A stretch of DNA of 45,839 nt from Clostridia bacterium (lineage in GTDB: Bacteria > Bacillota > Clostridia > Oscillospirales > CAG-272): the NCBI GenBank assembly GCA_017398585.1, contig JAFQFS010000125.1, forward strand, positions 1 through 45,839, given 5' to 3'. The notes beneath the pieces are model-generated. The model worked only from the letters and a program-made list of their open reading frames with translations, was not told the origin of the DNA and did no database searches. The position numbers and the translations under genes were made by a program. How positions within the stretch are numbered: the first letter of the stretch is position 1; each line of letters opens with the position of its first letter. This document shows positions 6,804 through 42,079 of this stretch, one piece after another.

Positions 6804-7890
6804 GATGAACGAACTCCTCACGGAAGAAACCGCACCCGTTTATGAAACGATCGGCCTCGCGTTTCTCGCGGACGAGATCGCGGACACGAAAAATGCACTT
6901 ATCCTGACCCATGTCAATCCCGACGGCGACTGCATCGGTTCGGCATTTGCTCTGCGGAAGCTGATTCTCGCCTGCGGCGGGAATGCACGCGTCGTCTGTC
7001 CGAACGATCTTCCGAAGCGGCTTCGCTTCCTCGCTTCCGACAGTTTCTATATGGGGGAGGAAGAAGAACCCTACAATACGCACTTTGATCCCGAAACCGA
7101 CGATCTTTCCGCGTACGACCGCATTCTTTCCATTGACGTTGCGTCTCCGATCCAGCTCGGTGACCTCGCGGCACTGATTCCGCACATCTCTTTCATGATC
7201 GACCATCACGGCATGGGAGAGGCGTTTGCGAAGAATTATATCGACACGACCGCATCTGCGGCAGGTGAGATCGTTTACCGTCTGTATATCGAACTCAAGC
7301 AGCGCGGCGTGATCGGAAATGTTCCGGAAGCAGCAAGACGCATGTATGCGGCGATCGTATCCGATACGGGCAGCTTCAAGTTCTCGAATACTTCCCCCGA
7401 AACGCACATGGCGGCGGCAGAACTCGTACGTGAGATCAATCACGCGGACGACGGCGGCATGGATACGGCAGATGTCTGCCGTTCCCTGTTCGGTCAGCGT
7501 ACTCTCAAGGAACTGACCGCGCAGATGCTCGCGATCCAGAACCTCCGCTTCTATGAAAACGGCCGTCTCGGTGCAGTGCTGTTCACTCAGCAGATGCTCG
7601 CCGACGCGGGACTGACCGAAGAAGAGATCGGCAACGTTGTCGATACGCCGCGCGGCGTCGAAGGCGTGCTGATCGGTATTTCGCTCCGGCAGCTTGCCGC
7701 CGATCCGATGCAGTACAAGGTTTCCTCCCGGGCGAATACGGAGATCGACTGTGCGGCGGTATGCGCAAACTTCGGCGGCGGCGGACATGTCCGCGCGGCC
7801 GGATGCACGATCACGGCGGACGATCCCGAAGAAGCGCTGGCACGGATGGCGGAAGCCTTCGGCGCAGCGATCCGGGAAGCGAAAGGATAA
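6796..7890 (+). CDS. nrnA: DHH-family phosphoesterase, NrnA-like (oligoribonuclease / pAp phosphatase)
   Basis: This cytosolic two-domain phosphoesterase probably degrades short oligoribonucleotides and 3'-phosphoadenosine 5'-phosphate. The DHH domain shows HVNPDGDCIGS at residues 39-49 and the name-giving DHH in MIDHHGMGEAF. The C-terminal DHHA1 domain ends with the glycine motif FGGGGHVRAAG. I chose the ATG at 6796, which overlaps the rbfA stop and has GAGGAGG about 12 bases upstream. An in-frame ATG at 6784 abuts that site directly and is less likely; 6805 is also possible. The length is 364 residues with this start. The rbfA-nrnA-truB order is common in Firmicutes. Confidence 0.9.
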   Translation: MNEMNELLTEETAPVYETIGLAFLADEIADTKNALILTHVNPDGDCIGSAFALRKLILACGGNARVVCPNDLPKRLRFLASDSFYMGEEEEPYNTHFDPETDDLSAYDRILSIDVASPIQLGDLAALIPHISFMIDHHGMGEAFAKNYIDTTASAAGEIVYRLYIELKQRGVIGNVPEAARRMYAAIVSDTGSFKFSNTSPETHMAAAELVREINHADDGGMDTADVCRSLFGQRTLKELTAQMLAIQNLRFYENGRLGAVLFTQQMLADAGLTEEEIGNVVDTPRGVEGVLIGISLRQLAADPMQYKVSSRANTEIDCAAVCANFGGGGHVRAAGCTITADDPEEALARMAEAFGAAIREAKG

Positions 7891-8123
7891 GTGAAATATT
7901 TCACTGCGTGAAATGTGAAATCCGCCTCCGGCGGGTGAAATATCCTGCGGATGTGAAATTTGCCGCACGGCGGCAAGTTGAGGAAAAATTCGCTGACGCG
8001 AATTTAAATTAATTAAAATGCGTCAGCATTTTTTCCTTAACTTCCTGCGAAGCAGGAAATTTCACTCGCCGCAGGCGAATTTCACTCACGCTCCGCGTGA
8101 ATTTCACAGCGCAGCTATTTCAC
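7891..8123. repeat. array of short palindromes bounded by GTGAAAT / ATTTCAC
   Basis: The gap between nrnA and truB is filled by small hairpins with 3-4 base loops. GTGAAAT occurs at 7891, 7908, 7915, 7935 and 7953; its complement ATTTCAC occurs at 7898, 8059, 8079, 8101 and 8117. Between the heptamers lie different palindromes: CCGCC-tcc-GGCGG, ATCC-tgc-GGAT, TTGCCGC-acg-GCGGCAA, TTCCTGC-gaa-GCAGGAA, TCGCC-gca-GGCGA, TCACGC-tcc-GCGTGA and AGC-gca-GCT. Two central hairpins with complementary loops (tgac, gtca) flank an AT-rich middle at 8003-8018. The whole array is roughly symmetric about that middle. Function is unknown; it is not protein coding. Confidence 0.85.
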
Positions 8124-8143
8124 TTAAAAACGGAGTTTTTATT

Positions 8144-37704: not shown

Positions 37705-37737
37705 ACAAGAGGTGCTTTTGGTACCTCTTTTTTGTTT
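37705..37737 (+). terminator. terminator after the zinc-ribbon gene
   Basis: AAGAGGT and ACCTCTT form a stem followed by TTTTTGTTTT. Confidence 0.82.
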
Positions 37738-37815
37738 TGAAAATGTGAAATCGTCAGAAAAAAAGTTTTTTCGCGGTATTTGTTGAAGATTGATATATAC
37801 AAAACGCGCGAAGTG

Positions 37816-37824
37816 TGATATAAT
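37816..37824 (+). promoter_or_regulatory. extended -10 promoter for rlmB
   Basis: TGA followed by TATAAT (37819-37824) forms an extended -10. A weak -35, TATACA, lies 17 bases upstream. The leader to rlmB is about 95 bases. Confidence 0.6.
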
Positions 37825-37925
37825 TAATGTGTATATTTATAAGATGCATTTTTATGCCCTGAACGGAGCCGGTTTGCCGGCGGCGGATCGGGTAGTTTTC
37901 AGCAATGGAGTAAACAATTTTCAAT

Positions 37926-38801
37926 ATGGAAGAAAGAATAAAAAAGAAATACGATGGGGCGCGGAACGGGAAAACCGGTGGTGCGTCCCGCAAACCAGGA
38001 GAAAGTCGTGACCGCAGACCCGGTTCCGGACGTCCGAACGACCGTCCGCAGAGAGAACGAGAGTTCGAACGCCGTGAAAACGTCGTGGTCGGACGCAACG
38101 CGGTGCGCGAACTTCTCGCGTCCGATACGCCGGTGGACAAAATCCTTGTGTCCGGCAGAGAAGGCTCCGTGGTCGCGCTGATCGCGCAGGCGAAGGAGCG
38201 CAGGATCCCGATCGTGGATTCCGATTCGGCTGCACTGGACCGTCTGGCCGGCGGCGAAAACCATCAGGGAATTGCCGCATACGTTGCGGAGAAGGAATAT
38301 TCCACCATTGAGGAGATTCTTGAAACGGCAGCGGAACGCGGGGAAAAGCCCCTGATCGTTGTGTGCGACGGCATCGAGGATCCGCACAACCTTGGTGCGG
38401 TGATCCGCTGTGCGGAGTGCGCCGGGGCTCATGGTGTCATCATTCCGGAACGGCGTGCGTGCGGTCTGACACCGGCGGTGTCCAAGGCATCGGCGGGTGC
38501 GATCCTTCACATGAAGATCGCGAGAGTCGGCAACATTGCGCAGACCATTGAAAAGCTTAAGGACAGCGGGATCTGGACGTTTGCGGCGGAAGCAGGAGGG
38601 ATCGACTTCTATGAAGCGGATTTCAATCTCCCGTGTGCAATCGTTCTCGGAGGAGAAGACAGCGGCGTCAGCCGTCTGGTGAAGGAACGTTGTGATTTCA
38701 CTATCTCCATCCCGATGTACGGTCATGTAAACTCGCTTAACGTTTCCACGGCGGCTTCTGTCCTGCTCACCCGCGCGGCGAGAATGCAGAGACAGGGATA
38801 A
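37926..38801 (+). CDS. rlmB: 23S rRNA 2'-O-ribose methyltransferase (TrmH/RlmB family)
   Basis: This SPOUT-fold methyltransferase is expected to methylate a guanosine ribose in 23S rRNA. The substrate-binding domain starts at VVVGRNAVRELLASDTPVD (about residue 53), and the catalytic motifs are VVCDGIEDPHNLGAVIRCAE, IVLGGEDSGVSRLVKE and IPMYGHVNSLNVSTAASVLL. Before them is a basic, probably disordered N-terminal extension of about 50 residues (rich in R, G, P). The length is 291 residues. The ribosome site before the ATG at 37926 is weak. Confidence 0.92.
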   Translation: MEERIKKKYDGARNGKTGGASRKPGESRDRRPGSGRPNDRPQREREFERRENVVVGRNAVRELLASDTPVDKILVSGREGSVVALIAQAKERRIPIVDSDSAALDRLAGGENHQGIAAYVAEKEYSTIEEILETAAERGEKPLIVVCDGIEDPHNLGAVIRCAECAGAHGVIIPERRACGLTPAVSKASAGAILHMKIARVGNIAQTIEKLKDSGIWTFAAEAGGIDFYEADFNLPCAIVLGGEDSGVSRLVKERCDFTISIPMYGHVNSLNVSTAASVLLTRAARMQRQG

Positions 38802-38897
38802 GACGCCGCGGAATTCCGCGACTCTTTGGTAGATAAATACGTTTCCAGCATAGGAAAGGAAGGACTGCGGCATACAGCGGCGGTCAATGTACTTAAT

Positions 38898-41891
38898 ATG
38901 GCTAAAAATAAGAAAAACAAGAAAGAAAATTCGGGGGACGCCCTGTTCGGCAGACTCGGACGCGGTTCGGCGAAAAAAGACAAGACGGCGGAAGAGGAAG
39001 AGCTTTTTGCGTTTGAAACGGAAGAAGCCGAAGCGGAGGAATACGATTCCATCGATATCACGGAGGACGCGGATCCGTCCGACAGTGAGCTGGATATCAA
39101 TGAGCTTCTGCGCAAATATATGCCGGAATATTCGGACGGCGAATCTTCCTCCGGCGGCTCGGGTTCGGGCGTTCTTTCCCGTCTGAAGCAGACGAGAGCG
39201 GACACGGAGATGATGCCGGAAAGCGAAGCGGATGATCAACTGATTTCCGCGCTCGATTCGGTTTTCTCGCAGTCCTTTGAGGAACAGGCGGAAGAACCGG
39301 TGATGACGGGGGAGGCGGAAGAGCTTCCCATGGAGGAAATCGTCGAAGAATTCGAGGAAGAACTTCCGGAAAAAACGCAGAAGAACACGTCTTCCGGAAA
39401 GGGAGGACTGTTCGGACGGAAAAACAAGCAGAAGGAACCGGAGCAGCCCGTTGACGAATTTGCCCTTGAAGCGGAAGAACCTTTCGAGGCGTACGAGGAA
39501 GAGCCGGCGGATGATTCGGAGCTTGAAGGAGAGACTCTCCCTTCGGCGGACGAATGGCTGGCAGAAGAACCGGAAGAAAAGACAAAGAAAAAACGTTTTG
39601 GCTTCGGTTTCCGTAAAAAGAAGAAGGAAAAGAACGTTACTGCAGAAGAGAATACGATTCTCGCGGATGACGAGCGGACGGAAGGCGTGCTTCCGGAAGG
39701 AGATATCCTTGCGGAAGAGCTGCTCGGAGATCTCCCGGAAGAATTCGGTGGAATTTTGGCAGAACTGGAGCTGTCCGGAGAAATTCCGGAAGAAGCGGAC
39801 GCTGCTGCGGATGTACCGGAGCTTTCTCTGGAGGAATCGACGGTTGCAGAAGAAACCGAAATCTCGGAAGCGGAACTCGAGGAAGAAACGGAGCCGGAAG
39901 AAATAACCGAACTTCGACTCGATCTCGGAACGGAATTTGCTCCGGAAAACGAAGGCGGTGCGGATTTCGAGCCTGCGAAGAATGAAAATTTTGCGGAAGA
40001 CGACTTCGACGAGCAGATCGACCCCACCGATATGAATCTCATGATCGCGTTCGGTCTGGACAGCGAGGGCGACAAAAAGGCGGATAAGGCGAAGGAACTC
40101 GGTGACCGCCTGGAAGCGAAGCAGCAGTCTCACGATGCGAAGAAGGTACAGCTCGACCGTCCCGAATTCGTTGACAAGTCCCAGACACCGAAGATCCGCA
40201 AGGAATTCAAGTACCGCGGCATTTCGCTCTGGATGAAGTTCGGCCTGTGCCTGATCTTCACCGTTCTGCTGATGCTGTTCGAAAACATCGAAGTGTTGAC
40301 CAAGCTGTTCACCGGTTCGCCGAAGCAGTTCGGCGGTGCGTTTGACCCCGCCGTTTACCCGACGGTATACATCATGGTGAGTCTGCAGCTCATGCTTCTT
40401 GCATGTCTCTGTGCATACGAACAGATCGCCAACGGTTTCAAATACCTGTTCCGCGGCGTTCCGAAGCCGGAATCGATGCTGTCCATTCTGACGGTGATCG
40501 GTATTCTGTACTCGGTGGTCCTCGTGCGTGTGAACAGCGGTGAACCGGTCATGTTCAACTTTATGGTTGCGCTGACTGCACTCTTCACACTGATTTATGC
40601 GATCTACAACCACAAGCGCGAAGTGCTGAACTTCCGTATTGTTGGCAACAAGAAGCCCAAGCATATCGTTCGCCGTCTGATGGATGAAGAATCCGAAGGC
40701 GAAGCGAGAGCGTTTGAAGACAACGACGAAGTCTGCGACGTTATGAAGATCGAGAAGACCGACTTCATTGACGGTTTCTTCGGCAGACTTACCAAGCCGG
40801 ATCCGGCGACGACGCGGTTCATGGTTGCACTTCTCAGTGCAGTCGGTGCCATTGCCGTGATCTTCGGTATTCTTATGAATTTCCGCGGCGGGGAAGCGGA
40901 TGCGGTGCTCGGCACCGTTTACGCGGCTCTGCTGATCGTAGCTCCCCTGTCCATTTACCTGACGTTCAGTTATCCCTTCTACCGCGCGAACGTTGCGGCG
41001 AAGGAATACGACAGTGCCATCATCGGGGATTCTTCCCTCGAGGAATATTCCAATGCGTCCATCATCAGCTTTGACGACAAGAACGTATTCCCGTCCTATT
41101 CCGTCAAGGTGCAGAACATCCGCATTTACAACAATGCGCGTGTGGACCGTGTGTTCTACTATGCTGCGTCCGTCTTTGCATACGCGGGCGGTCCTCTGCA
41201 GGATGTGTTTGAATTTGCGACGCTGGAAATGGGGCATTCGGCGAATGTGAAGATTTTCGATACCGAAGCCGGTTTCCTTGCAACTCAGGTGGACGGCGTC
41301 AACATTTTCTTCGGCAATTCCGAAGCGCTGAAAAATCACGGCTTTGAAATTGATGCGGACGCGGAAGAAGACGACATGGATCTGTCCGACGAACTGTCCG
41401 TTATGTACATGTTCCGCGAGAAGAAGCTCGTTGCGAAGATGTACATCCAGTATGTCATGGATGCGGACATCGATCTGATTCTCAAGCAGTTCTCCGGCAG
41501 CGGCCTGTACGTCTGTGTACGTACGTTCGACCCGAACATTGACGAGCGTATGATCGCGCGCAAACTCAACATGAAGCGCATGCCGCTCAAGATCGTACGT
41601 TATGCAAGCGCGGAAGAAGTGACTTCGTATGAAGAAAAGGTCGACAGCGGTCTGGTGACCTGCGGTTCGCCGAAATCGCTGCTGCAGGTGATCTCGTACT
41701 GCGAAAAGGTTCTGCGTACCAGAAAGACGAACGTTGCGCTCGGCGTTCTCTCCGTTCTGATCGGTACGGGTATTCTCACGCTGCTGCTCCTGTCCAATTC
41801 GATGGGACTGCTGAATTCGCTGTACATCGCAATTTATCAGCTGATCTGGATGATCCCGCTTTCGATTTCGTCCAGAATGTTTATCCGGTAA
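38898..41891 (+). CDS. large acidic membrane protein, probable degenerate P-type ATPase
   Basis: I do not recognise a named family. Residues 1-435 are highly acidic with a few basic clusters and look disordered. Residues 440-997 contain eight likely membrane helices (about 443-465, 489-511, 525-545, 553-571, 640-662, 669-695, 946-968, 974-996), placed as in P1B-type ATPases. Where the phosphorylation motif DKTGT is expected, the text is FDDKNVFP (from D726). The nucleotide-domain strand reads FFGNSEALKNHGF, the TGDN position reads VRTFDPN, and no GDGVND hinge or CPx motif is seen. This suggests an inactive transporter fold. The start is uncertain: the ATG at 38898 has only distant GGAAGG; a TTG at 38826 would add 24 residues. 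Confidence 0.7.
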   Translation: MAKNKKNKKENSGDALFGRLGRGSAKKDKTAEEEELFAFETEEAEAEEYDSIDITEDADPSDSELDINELLRKYMPEYSDGESSSGGSGSGVLSRLKQTRADTEMMPESEADDQLISALDSVFSQSFEEQAEEPVMTGEAEELPMEEIVEEFEEELPEKTQKNTSSGKGGLFGRKNKQKEPEQPVDEFALEAEEPFEAYEEEPADDSELEGETLPSADEWLAEEPEEKTKKKRFGFGFRKKKKEKNVTAEENTILADDERTEGVLPEGDILAEELLGDLPEEFGGILAELELSGEIPEEADAAADVPELSLEESTVAEETEISEAELEEETEPEEITELRLDLGTEFAPENEGGADFEPAKNENFAEDDFDEQIDPTDMNLMIAFGLDSEGDKKADKAKELGDRLEAKQQSHDAKKVQLDRPEFVDKSQTPKIRKEFKYRGISLWMKFGLCLIFTVLLMLFENIEVLTKLFTGSPKQFGGAFDPAVYPTVYIMVSLQLMLLACLCAYEQIANGFKYLFRGVPKPESMLSILTVIGILYSVVLVRVNSGEPVMFNFMVALTALFTLIYAIYNHKREVLNFRIVGNKKPKHIVRRLMDEESEGEARAFEDNDEVCDVMKIEKTDFIDGFFGRLTKPDPATTRFMVALLSAVGAIAVIFGILMNFRGGEADAVLGTVYAALLIVAPLSIYLTFSYPFYRANVAAKEYDSAIIGDSSLEEYSNASIISFDDKNVFPSYSVKVQNIRIYNNARVDRVFYYAASVFAYAGGPLQDVFEFATLEMGHSANVKIFDTEAGFLATQVDGVNIFFGNSEALKNHGFEIDADAEEDDMDLSDELSVMYMFREKKLVAKMYIQYVMDADIDLILKQFSGSGLYVCVRTFDPNIDERMIARKLNMKRMPLKIVRYASAEEVTSYEEKVDSGLVTCGSPKSLLQVISYCEKVLRTRKTNVALGVLSVLIGTGILTLLLLSNSMGLLNSLYIAIYQLIWMIPLSISSRMFIR

Positions 41892-42024: not shown

Positions 42025-42079
42025 AAGGTTTTTGAAAGGGGTTCGGGGAAAACTTTTTCCTTAAAAAAGTTTTCCCCGA
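42025..42079. repeat. dispersed palindromic element, copy 5 (inverted)
   Basis: The tail AAGGTTTTTGAAAGGGGT then the core TCGGGGAAAACTTTTT and its complement, inverted relative to copy 4 and separated from it by 65 bases of AT-rich sequence. It ends 12 bases before the radical SAM gene. Confidence 0.85.

Follow-up and report, generated by a model that had tools for sequence, protein, structure and literature searches.

The DNA considered here, referred to as the window, is the whole 45,839-nucleotide stretch of contig JAFQFS010000125.1 (Clostridia bacterium, assembly GCA_017398585.1). Downstream of the rRNA methyltransferase gene rlmB, it encodes a 997-residue membrane protein whose body is homologous to copper-transporting P1B-type ATPases and lacks the motifs by which such pumps work. 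The open reading frame is read from an ATG, with an in-frame TTG 72 bases upstream. Nine windows emerge from a hydropathy scan, and because two of them overlap (residues 664–682 and 673–691) the protein is assigned eight helices in the 2-2-2-2 plan, the P1B spacing that a sequence-only reading of the locus had proposed. That reading had also placed FDDKNVFP after helix six, where FDKTGT belongs, VRTFDPN where TGDN belongs, and noted an N-domain-like sequence; profile alignments to real copper ATPases agree, with TFDPN opposite TGDN and FFGNSEALKNHGF falling at the N-domain end. As it had likewise noted, the protein is devoid of TGES, CPC and GDGxND.

Even on its own, the sequence points to copper ATPases. 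No Pfam family matches the window protein at E ≤ 1, the NCBIfam matches are weak but colinear (CopA, E = 3.7e-5; TIGR01525, E = 9.2e-4), and the sole match among PDB sequences at E ≤ 1 in a single-sequence search is the copper ATPase 3rfu (E = 1.5e-5). The first alignment of homologues (A1) comprises 95 of 114 rows, without L026, L027 and rows more than 80% alike; L116 was missed in the first search and picked up later. The order-wide alignment (A2) has 81 rows, 40 hand-picked from the 114-row set and 41 from other families, and omits L166 and L171 (split frames), L174 (partial), and L187, L188, L192 and L194 (repeats or near kin). Against the PDB, the A2 profile matches 3rfu (LpCopA) with E = 5.6e-40, followed by other copper ATPases. 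Individually, 48 of the 81 members match TIGR01525 and 35 match CopA; in Pfam, PF00702 is found for one row and no output domain for any.

Compared with a profile of 18 real P1B ATPases, A2 aligns over 558 columns (Prob 100, E = 5.4e-41; the E-value here and for the blocks below refers to one comparison each). The MA–M2, M3–M4 and P–N–P blocks match separately (E = 3.2e-17, Prob 98.9; E = 3.4e-6, Prob 87.7; and E = 3.2e-22, Prob 99.5, respectively), whereas the match is weak from the end of the P domain to M6 (E = 0.0022, Prob 12.9) and for M5–M6 alone (E = 0.04, Prob 1.3). Reversed-profile controls give no match (Prob 1.3 at most), and the comparison with these controls rules out a chance likeness of the helices. 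In a tree of 61 rows (41 pseudo-ATPases, 18 P1B ATPases and 2 outgroup sequences), obtained by a quick search and with several long end branches, the pseudo-ATPases form one clade (SH-aLRT 100). Homology of the body to copper ATPases is firm and the protein is by descent a member of the P-type superfamily, with the extra helices MA and MB and the 2-2-2-2 plan of P1B pumps. As far as sequence can tell, the P-type fold that had been predicted stands for a P1B-derived body with P and N domains, but not for the A domain, which is undetectable by sequence (E = 0.69, Prob 0.1, against the P1B profile) and is replaced by a linker of 67 residues.

The loss of motifs is a property of the family. A pattern search of 162 homologous frames (157 distinct) finds DKTGT, GDGxND and CPC in none; a homologue with an intact DKTGT, which would have spoken for mere decay, is not among them. 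The letters TGES occur anywhere in five frames and TGDN in one (three and one, respectively, in the bodies alone), and no aligned row has TGES at the A-domain site. Set against real P1B ATPases, all 81 rows of A2 have gaps at the E and S of TGES, 80 have one at its G, and all 81 have gaps throughout GDGxND; the position of these gaps depends on the alignment, whereas the pattern search does not. The nucleophile column holds Asp in 35/81 rows and the adjoining column in 64/81, with neither in eight, and at most three of the five DKTGT letters survive in any row. At the CPC site, Pro is present in 70/81 rows, Cys in three at the first site, in one at the second and at both in none, and the N-domain His of SEHPL is kept in 0/81. 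Other positions of the former active site remain conserved: the Asp of the TGDN site in 78/81 rows, and D727, D878 and P879 with conservation of 0.95, 0.96 and 0.97 in the 114-row set. Since DKTGT, TGES, GDGxND and the nucleotide-binding His are lost and the nucleophile is not conserved, catalysis by the P-type route is very unlikely. The window's own genome also has real pumps with DKTGT.

Table 1 Features of the pseudo-ATPase locus (positions in the window)
Feature	Residues	Position	Strand	Basis
Intrinsic-terminator-like hairpin, 5' of the unit		37707..37729	+	Consensus match only
Sigma-70-like promoter, TATACA-17-TATAAT, TG before -10		37796..37824	+	Consensus match only
rlmB, 23S rRNA G2251 2'-O-methyltransferase		37926..38801	+	TIGR00186, E = 1.9e-67
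Pseudo-P1B ATPase gene	997 aa	38898..41891	+	Open reading frame from ATG; homology to copper ATPases
Long acidic, low-complexity cytoplasmic tail	1–434	38898..40199	+	30% Asp + Glu, net charge -82
Tail motif LDINELLRKYMPEY, possible f1 counterpart of [FY]S[ILV][DE][DE]ILAE	65–78	39090..39131	+	Presumed equivalence
Second tail motif, DMNLMIAFGL	378–387	40029..40058	+	Window's family and near kin only
Helix MA	442–460	40221..40277	+	Hydropathy; MA–M2 block matches P1B
Helix MB	489–507	40362..40418	+	Hydropathy, profile-profile
Helix M1	527–545	40476..40532	+	Hydropathy, profile-profile
Helix M2	551–569	40548..40604	+	Hydropathy, profile-profile
67-residue linker at the A-domain place, no TGES		40617..40817	+	No P1B profile match
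Helix M3	641–659	40818..40874	+	Hydropathy, profile-profile
Helix M4, APLS for CPCA, proline kept	673–691	40914..40970	+	Hydropathy, profile-profile
FDDKNVFP for (F/V)DKTGTLT	725–732	41070..41093	+	Profile alignments to real copper ATPases
GGPL for EHPL, nucleotide-binding His site of the N domain		41187..41198	+	His in 0/81 rows
TFDPNI for TGDN		41523..41540	+	Asp kept in 78/81 rows
DSGLV, end of the P domain; preceding GDGxND loop missing		41643..41657	+	GDGxND columns empty in 81/81 rows
Helix M5	946–964	41733..41789	+	Hydropathy; P-end-to-M6 profile match weak
Helix M6, conserved YQLxW	972–990	41811..41867	+	Hydropathy
16-pair terminator-like hairpin, closing the unit		42043..42079	+	Consensus match only

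The protein is kept by selection across a wide range of genomes. The ratio of non-synonymous to synonymous substitution rates (dN/dS) of the body is 0.103 and 0.087 against two relatives at 86 and 87% identity; for the tail it is 0.26 and 0.16 against L003 and L004, values that are less sure because dS exceeds 1.4. Among genomes with names, 25 loci were recovered; their titles read Oscillospiraceae, Ruminococcus or Clostridia, and every one comes from a metagenome-assembled genome. The body is matched at E ≤ 1e-3 in 143 of the 146 genomes of the window's family, a count in which weak matches were not each inspected. Across the sampled order, which we take from the names of the relatives to be GTDB Oscillospirales, the gene is found at E ≤ 1e-60 in 275 of 295 genomes, including 219 of 225 high-quality ones. 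At least one of the 20 genomes without a match, G171, has the tail and rlmB at a contig end; G981 has two matches in the order-wide table. Two near-full-length copies lie on separate contigs of another genome (L085 and L086 of G011).

Within the samples taken, the pseudo-ATPase is restricted to this order. Outside the order, none of 236 genomes of the class sample passes 1e-30 with the first profile, and none of 296 outsiders in the phylum sample passes 1e-45; the class, phylum and order samples overlap. With the A2 profile, each of the 12 genomes of the class sample that belong to the order reaches 327–667 bits across almost the whole model; among 279 outsiders the top score is 139.8 bits, over the M3-to-P part. 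The 18 best outsiders, on inspection, are all real ATPases with DKTGT and CPC.

The gene lies 96 bases downstream of rlmB, which is its constant neighbour. In the first set rlmB is present in 77 of 77 loci with at least 1,500 bases upstream; with 40 loci from other families included, 99 of 100 flanked loci have it upstream in the same orientation, and 99 of 99 with room, which answers the question of the sequence-only reading whether this neighbour is constant. At L174, the locus without a clustered rlmB, the stretch stops 56 bases upstream of the frame; rlmB is also present at L116, L173, L252 and L258. Measured between stop-to-stop frames, the gap has a median of 4 bases and exceeds 300 in two cases. 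The promoter-like site, the flanking hairpins and the 96-base gap fit a two-gene unit, whose co-transcription we infer; consensus signals of these kinds are little rarer in shuffled sequence (nine terminators in the region against 6.0 expected, three promoters against 2.2). The downstream gene in the window encodes a radical SAM protein (TIGR03960/TIGR03936), which was rejected as a partner: in the first set, 78 of the 101 loci with enough sequence have it, but 0 of 40 in other families do, and is therefore not a constant neighbour. On the opposite strand, an open frame of 1,146 codons (37899–41339, minus strand) spans rlmB together with the greater part of the pseudo-ATPase gene and is probably a by-product of codon use. 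No regulatory RNA of Rfam is found at the rlmB/pseudo-ATPase unit at the gathering score. Elsewhere in the window, two Gut-1 RNAs (RF01706) score above that threshold at 7889–7964 (plus strand) and 8054–8125 (minus strand), in opposite orientation and about 90 bases apart.

The tail preceding MA is acidic, although the earlier description of it as mostly Asp and Glu overstated its composition (Table 1). Among 145 tails, a survey that omits ten named loci and any frame truncated at a contig end, 119 have a net charge of -20 or below and 11 of zero or above; five are shorter than 60 residues, and both f10 tails comprise 0–5 residues. Tails were taken to start at the first Met of the frame, so these lengths are upper estimates. 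By these counts the long acidic tail is usual in the family but not essential. Two sequence patterns recur in the tails, their expressions having been picked after looking at the sequences. In the window's family and its near relatives, 39 of 94 tails carry a juxtamembrane DINLMIAFG-like motif, where shuffles would give 0.1; in other families 0 of 38 do. Near the N-terminus, [DE][DEN][IL][LI] occurs in 30 of 92 tails of the former group, against 6.9 expected, and in 16 of 36 tails of the other families, against 2.3.

The strict tip motif [FY]S[ILV][DE][DE]ILAE is borne by tails of many families other than the window's own. Sought at the DNA level across 197 of the order's genomes, it gives 20 matches in 19 genomes and none in the reversed control. 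By position, 16 of these lie in the known pseudo-ATPase gene; two more fall in pseudo-ATPase tails truncated at a contig end, both preceded by rlmB. The remaining two are in frame at the tail tips of other membrane proteins. In a 318-codon frame for signal peptidase II, LspA (L260:586-1539; PF01252, E = 2.1e-38), the motif closes a long C-terminal tail rich in Ala, Pro and Lys, whose final letters are EYSLEDILAEFRDI. In an ABC-2 permease (L268:232-1554, minus strand; PF01061, E = 6.1e-17), a long, disordered-looking N-terminal tail begins with FSIDDILAE.

A looser scan for the tip motif at frame ends (frames of at least 150 residues) gives 39 frames, which by locus belong to the pseudo-ATPase family, LspA or the ABC-2 permease; the 268 loci scanned (2.27 Mb with overlaps) were picked around these genes and are not a random sample. 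An early pattern test in four genomes (control 0) gave seven matches: three in pseudo-ATPase tails, one in the ABC-2 permease, one in a 131-codon frame and two in frames that do not have the motif at an N-terminus. A looser DNA pattern in six genomes gave five matches (two pseudo-ATPase tails, the ABC-2 permease, an RlmN-like protein and one unassigned), against two in the control, and so only the strict motif is telling. A motif of the f1 type shared elsewhere in its own genome was also sought and rejected: the pattern ELLxKY(M)PE matched the pseudo-ATPase gene only, in a genome that is 74% complete.

That the protein is a pseudo-pump is well supported. As to what it does, we infer a membrane docking platform, a reading to which we give about an even chance. 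A copper-type ATPase ancestor, probably at the base of the order, would have shed the A domain together with the phosphorylation motif, the Mg-binding GDGxND loop, CPC and the His that binds nucleotide, while keeping all eight helices and, judging by sequence, the folds of the P and N domains. The body would then be a fixed head that faces the cytoplasm and is anchored by eight helices, and the long disordered tail as a tether whose tip motif may bind a cytoplasmic hub, so that partners would be brought together at the membrane by a protein encoded next to rlmB and presumably made together with RlmB. Because the tip motif ends the LspA tail and opens the ABC-2 permease tail, the hub may serve envelope assembly. 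Of the tie to envelope or divisome functions once suggested for this gene, the envelope part survives as a hint resting on those two proteins, and the divisome part is not borne out; the sensor, scaffold or regulator of that reading is likewise conjecture.

Several observations weigh against a docking platform. The strict tip motif is confined to 19 of the 197 genomes, its only carriers besides the pseudo-ATPase are two proteins in one genome each, and the window's own family has a diverged version at best. One match of the looser DNA pattern lies inside an RlmN-like protein, and its excess over the control is small (five against two). Both f10 proteins are nearly without a tail, 6 of the 225 high-quality genomes have no match, and rlmB, the sole constant neighbour, points to ribosomes and not to the envelope. 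Within the former active site, finally, D727, D878 and GGPL are strongly conserved, which may point to a remaining ligand or to some unusual chemistry.

As an alternative, a former pump could bind a metal, a nucleotide or a lipid without turnover and signal through its tail or head; such a ligand sensor or regulator would account for former active-site positions that are conserved though changed, and TMEM94, in which comparable motifs are lost, retains micromolar binding of an ATP analogue (PMC12134183). We nevertheless regard a sensor as unlikely: no aligned row keeps both CPC cysteines, none keeps the N-domain His, and Pfam recognizes no output domain. A transporter with unusual chemistry, or with none and therefore passive or partner-driven, is quite improbable: the M4 proline is widely kept, and one report has ERMA/TMEM94 (DKQGI, GSSANL, no TGES) moving Mg2+ with ATP (PMC13322241), but that claim is disputed (PMC12134183), and the present family lacks both the Mg-binding loop and a conserved nucleophile, while its A domain is not detectable.

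The constancy of rlmB, together with consensus signals that fit a two-gene unit, would suit a factor in ribosome maturation that acts via RlmB, for example by bringing RlmB or newly made ribosomes to the membrane. We give this idea little weight, since its basis is gene adjacency and the charge of most tails disfavours RNA binding; RlmB, moreover, is widespread without a pseudo-ATPase partner. A decaying pseudogene has next to no probability. Motifs are lost and one internal TGA is present in each of G021, G166 and G969, but most matches listed have no internal stop, and a local degenerate copy, the reading under which the motif loss would be mere decay, is ruled out by a body dN/dS of about 0.1 and the presence of the gene in nearly all sampled genomes of the order.

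A bolder and doubtful reading goes further: a copper pump may have been converted, order-wide, into a near-universal non-catalytic membrane hub, with [FY]S[ILV][DE][DE]ILAE as a docking code also adopted by envelope proteins (signal peptidase II and the ABC-2 permease), in an undescribed organizing system around a cytoplasmic partner. Independently of that, these proteins would constitute a family of bacterial pseudo-P-type ATPases. Most of the genomes sampled in the order, which has many gut-dwelling members, carry one, and Pfam has no entry for the family, so that a probably basic function may be hidden there. It is a clean system for asking what use a pump fold has after losing catalysis, and through its tail motif it provides a direct handle for finding the partner.

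Pseudo-forms of P-type ATPases seem hardly described. Among the matches listed from open-licence PubMed Central literature there is no bacterial example, no passage on pseudo-ATPases was found in a 2023 review with the terms used (PMC10654040), and the one debated case found is eukaryotic. According to that review, CtpH and CtpI of Mycobacterium tuberculosis are likewise P-type ATPases of isolated position whose function is not characterized. The apicomplexan guanylyl cyclase with a P4-ATPase domain resembles the present family in tying a P-type body to another function; it keeps, however, the phosphorylatable Asp, and parasites with that Asp replaced could not be selected (PMC7858053). P1B copper ATPases (PDB entries 3rfu, 3j08 and 3skx) share with the family the helix plan, the P and N domains and sequence homology, and differ in possessing DKTGT, TGES, CPC, GDGxND and the SEHPL His.

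Of the cases described so far, eukaryotic TMEM94/ERMA comes closest. Its structures have P-type architecture without TGES, and one group finds neither ATPase activity nor nucleotide at the phosphorylation site (PMC12134183); according to the other report, Mg2+ uptake is lost in the D427N variant (PMC13322241). TMEM94 is not among the best 60 of 63 PDB matches of the family profile, a search that involves no direct comparison of the two. Like the pseudo-P1B family, TMEM94/ERMA combines P-type architecture with a degenerate phosphorylation motif (DKQGI in TMEM94), a replaced GDGVND (GSSANL) and no TGES. In contrast, TMEM94 has ten helices, a GMN motif (PMC13322241), an A-like domain and a location in the eukaryotic endoplasmic reticulum, whereas the bacterial family is of P1B type, with eight helices by hydropathy, no detectable A domain and, usually, a long tail.

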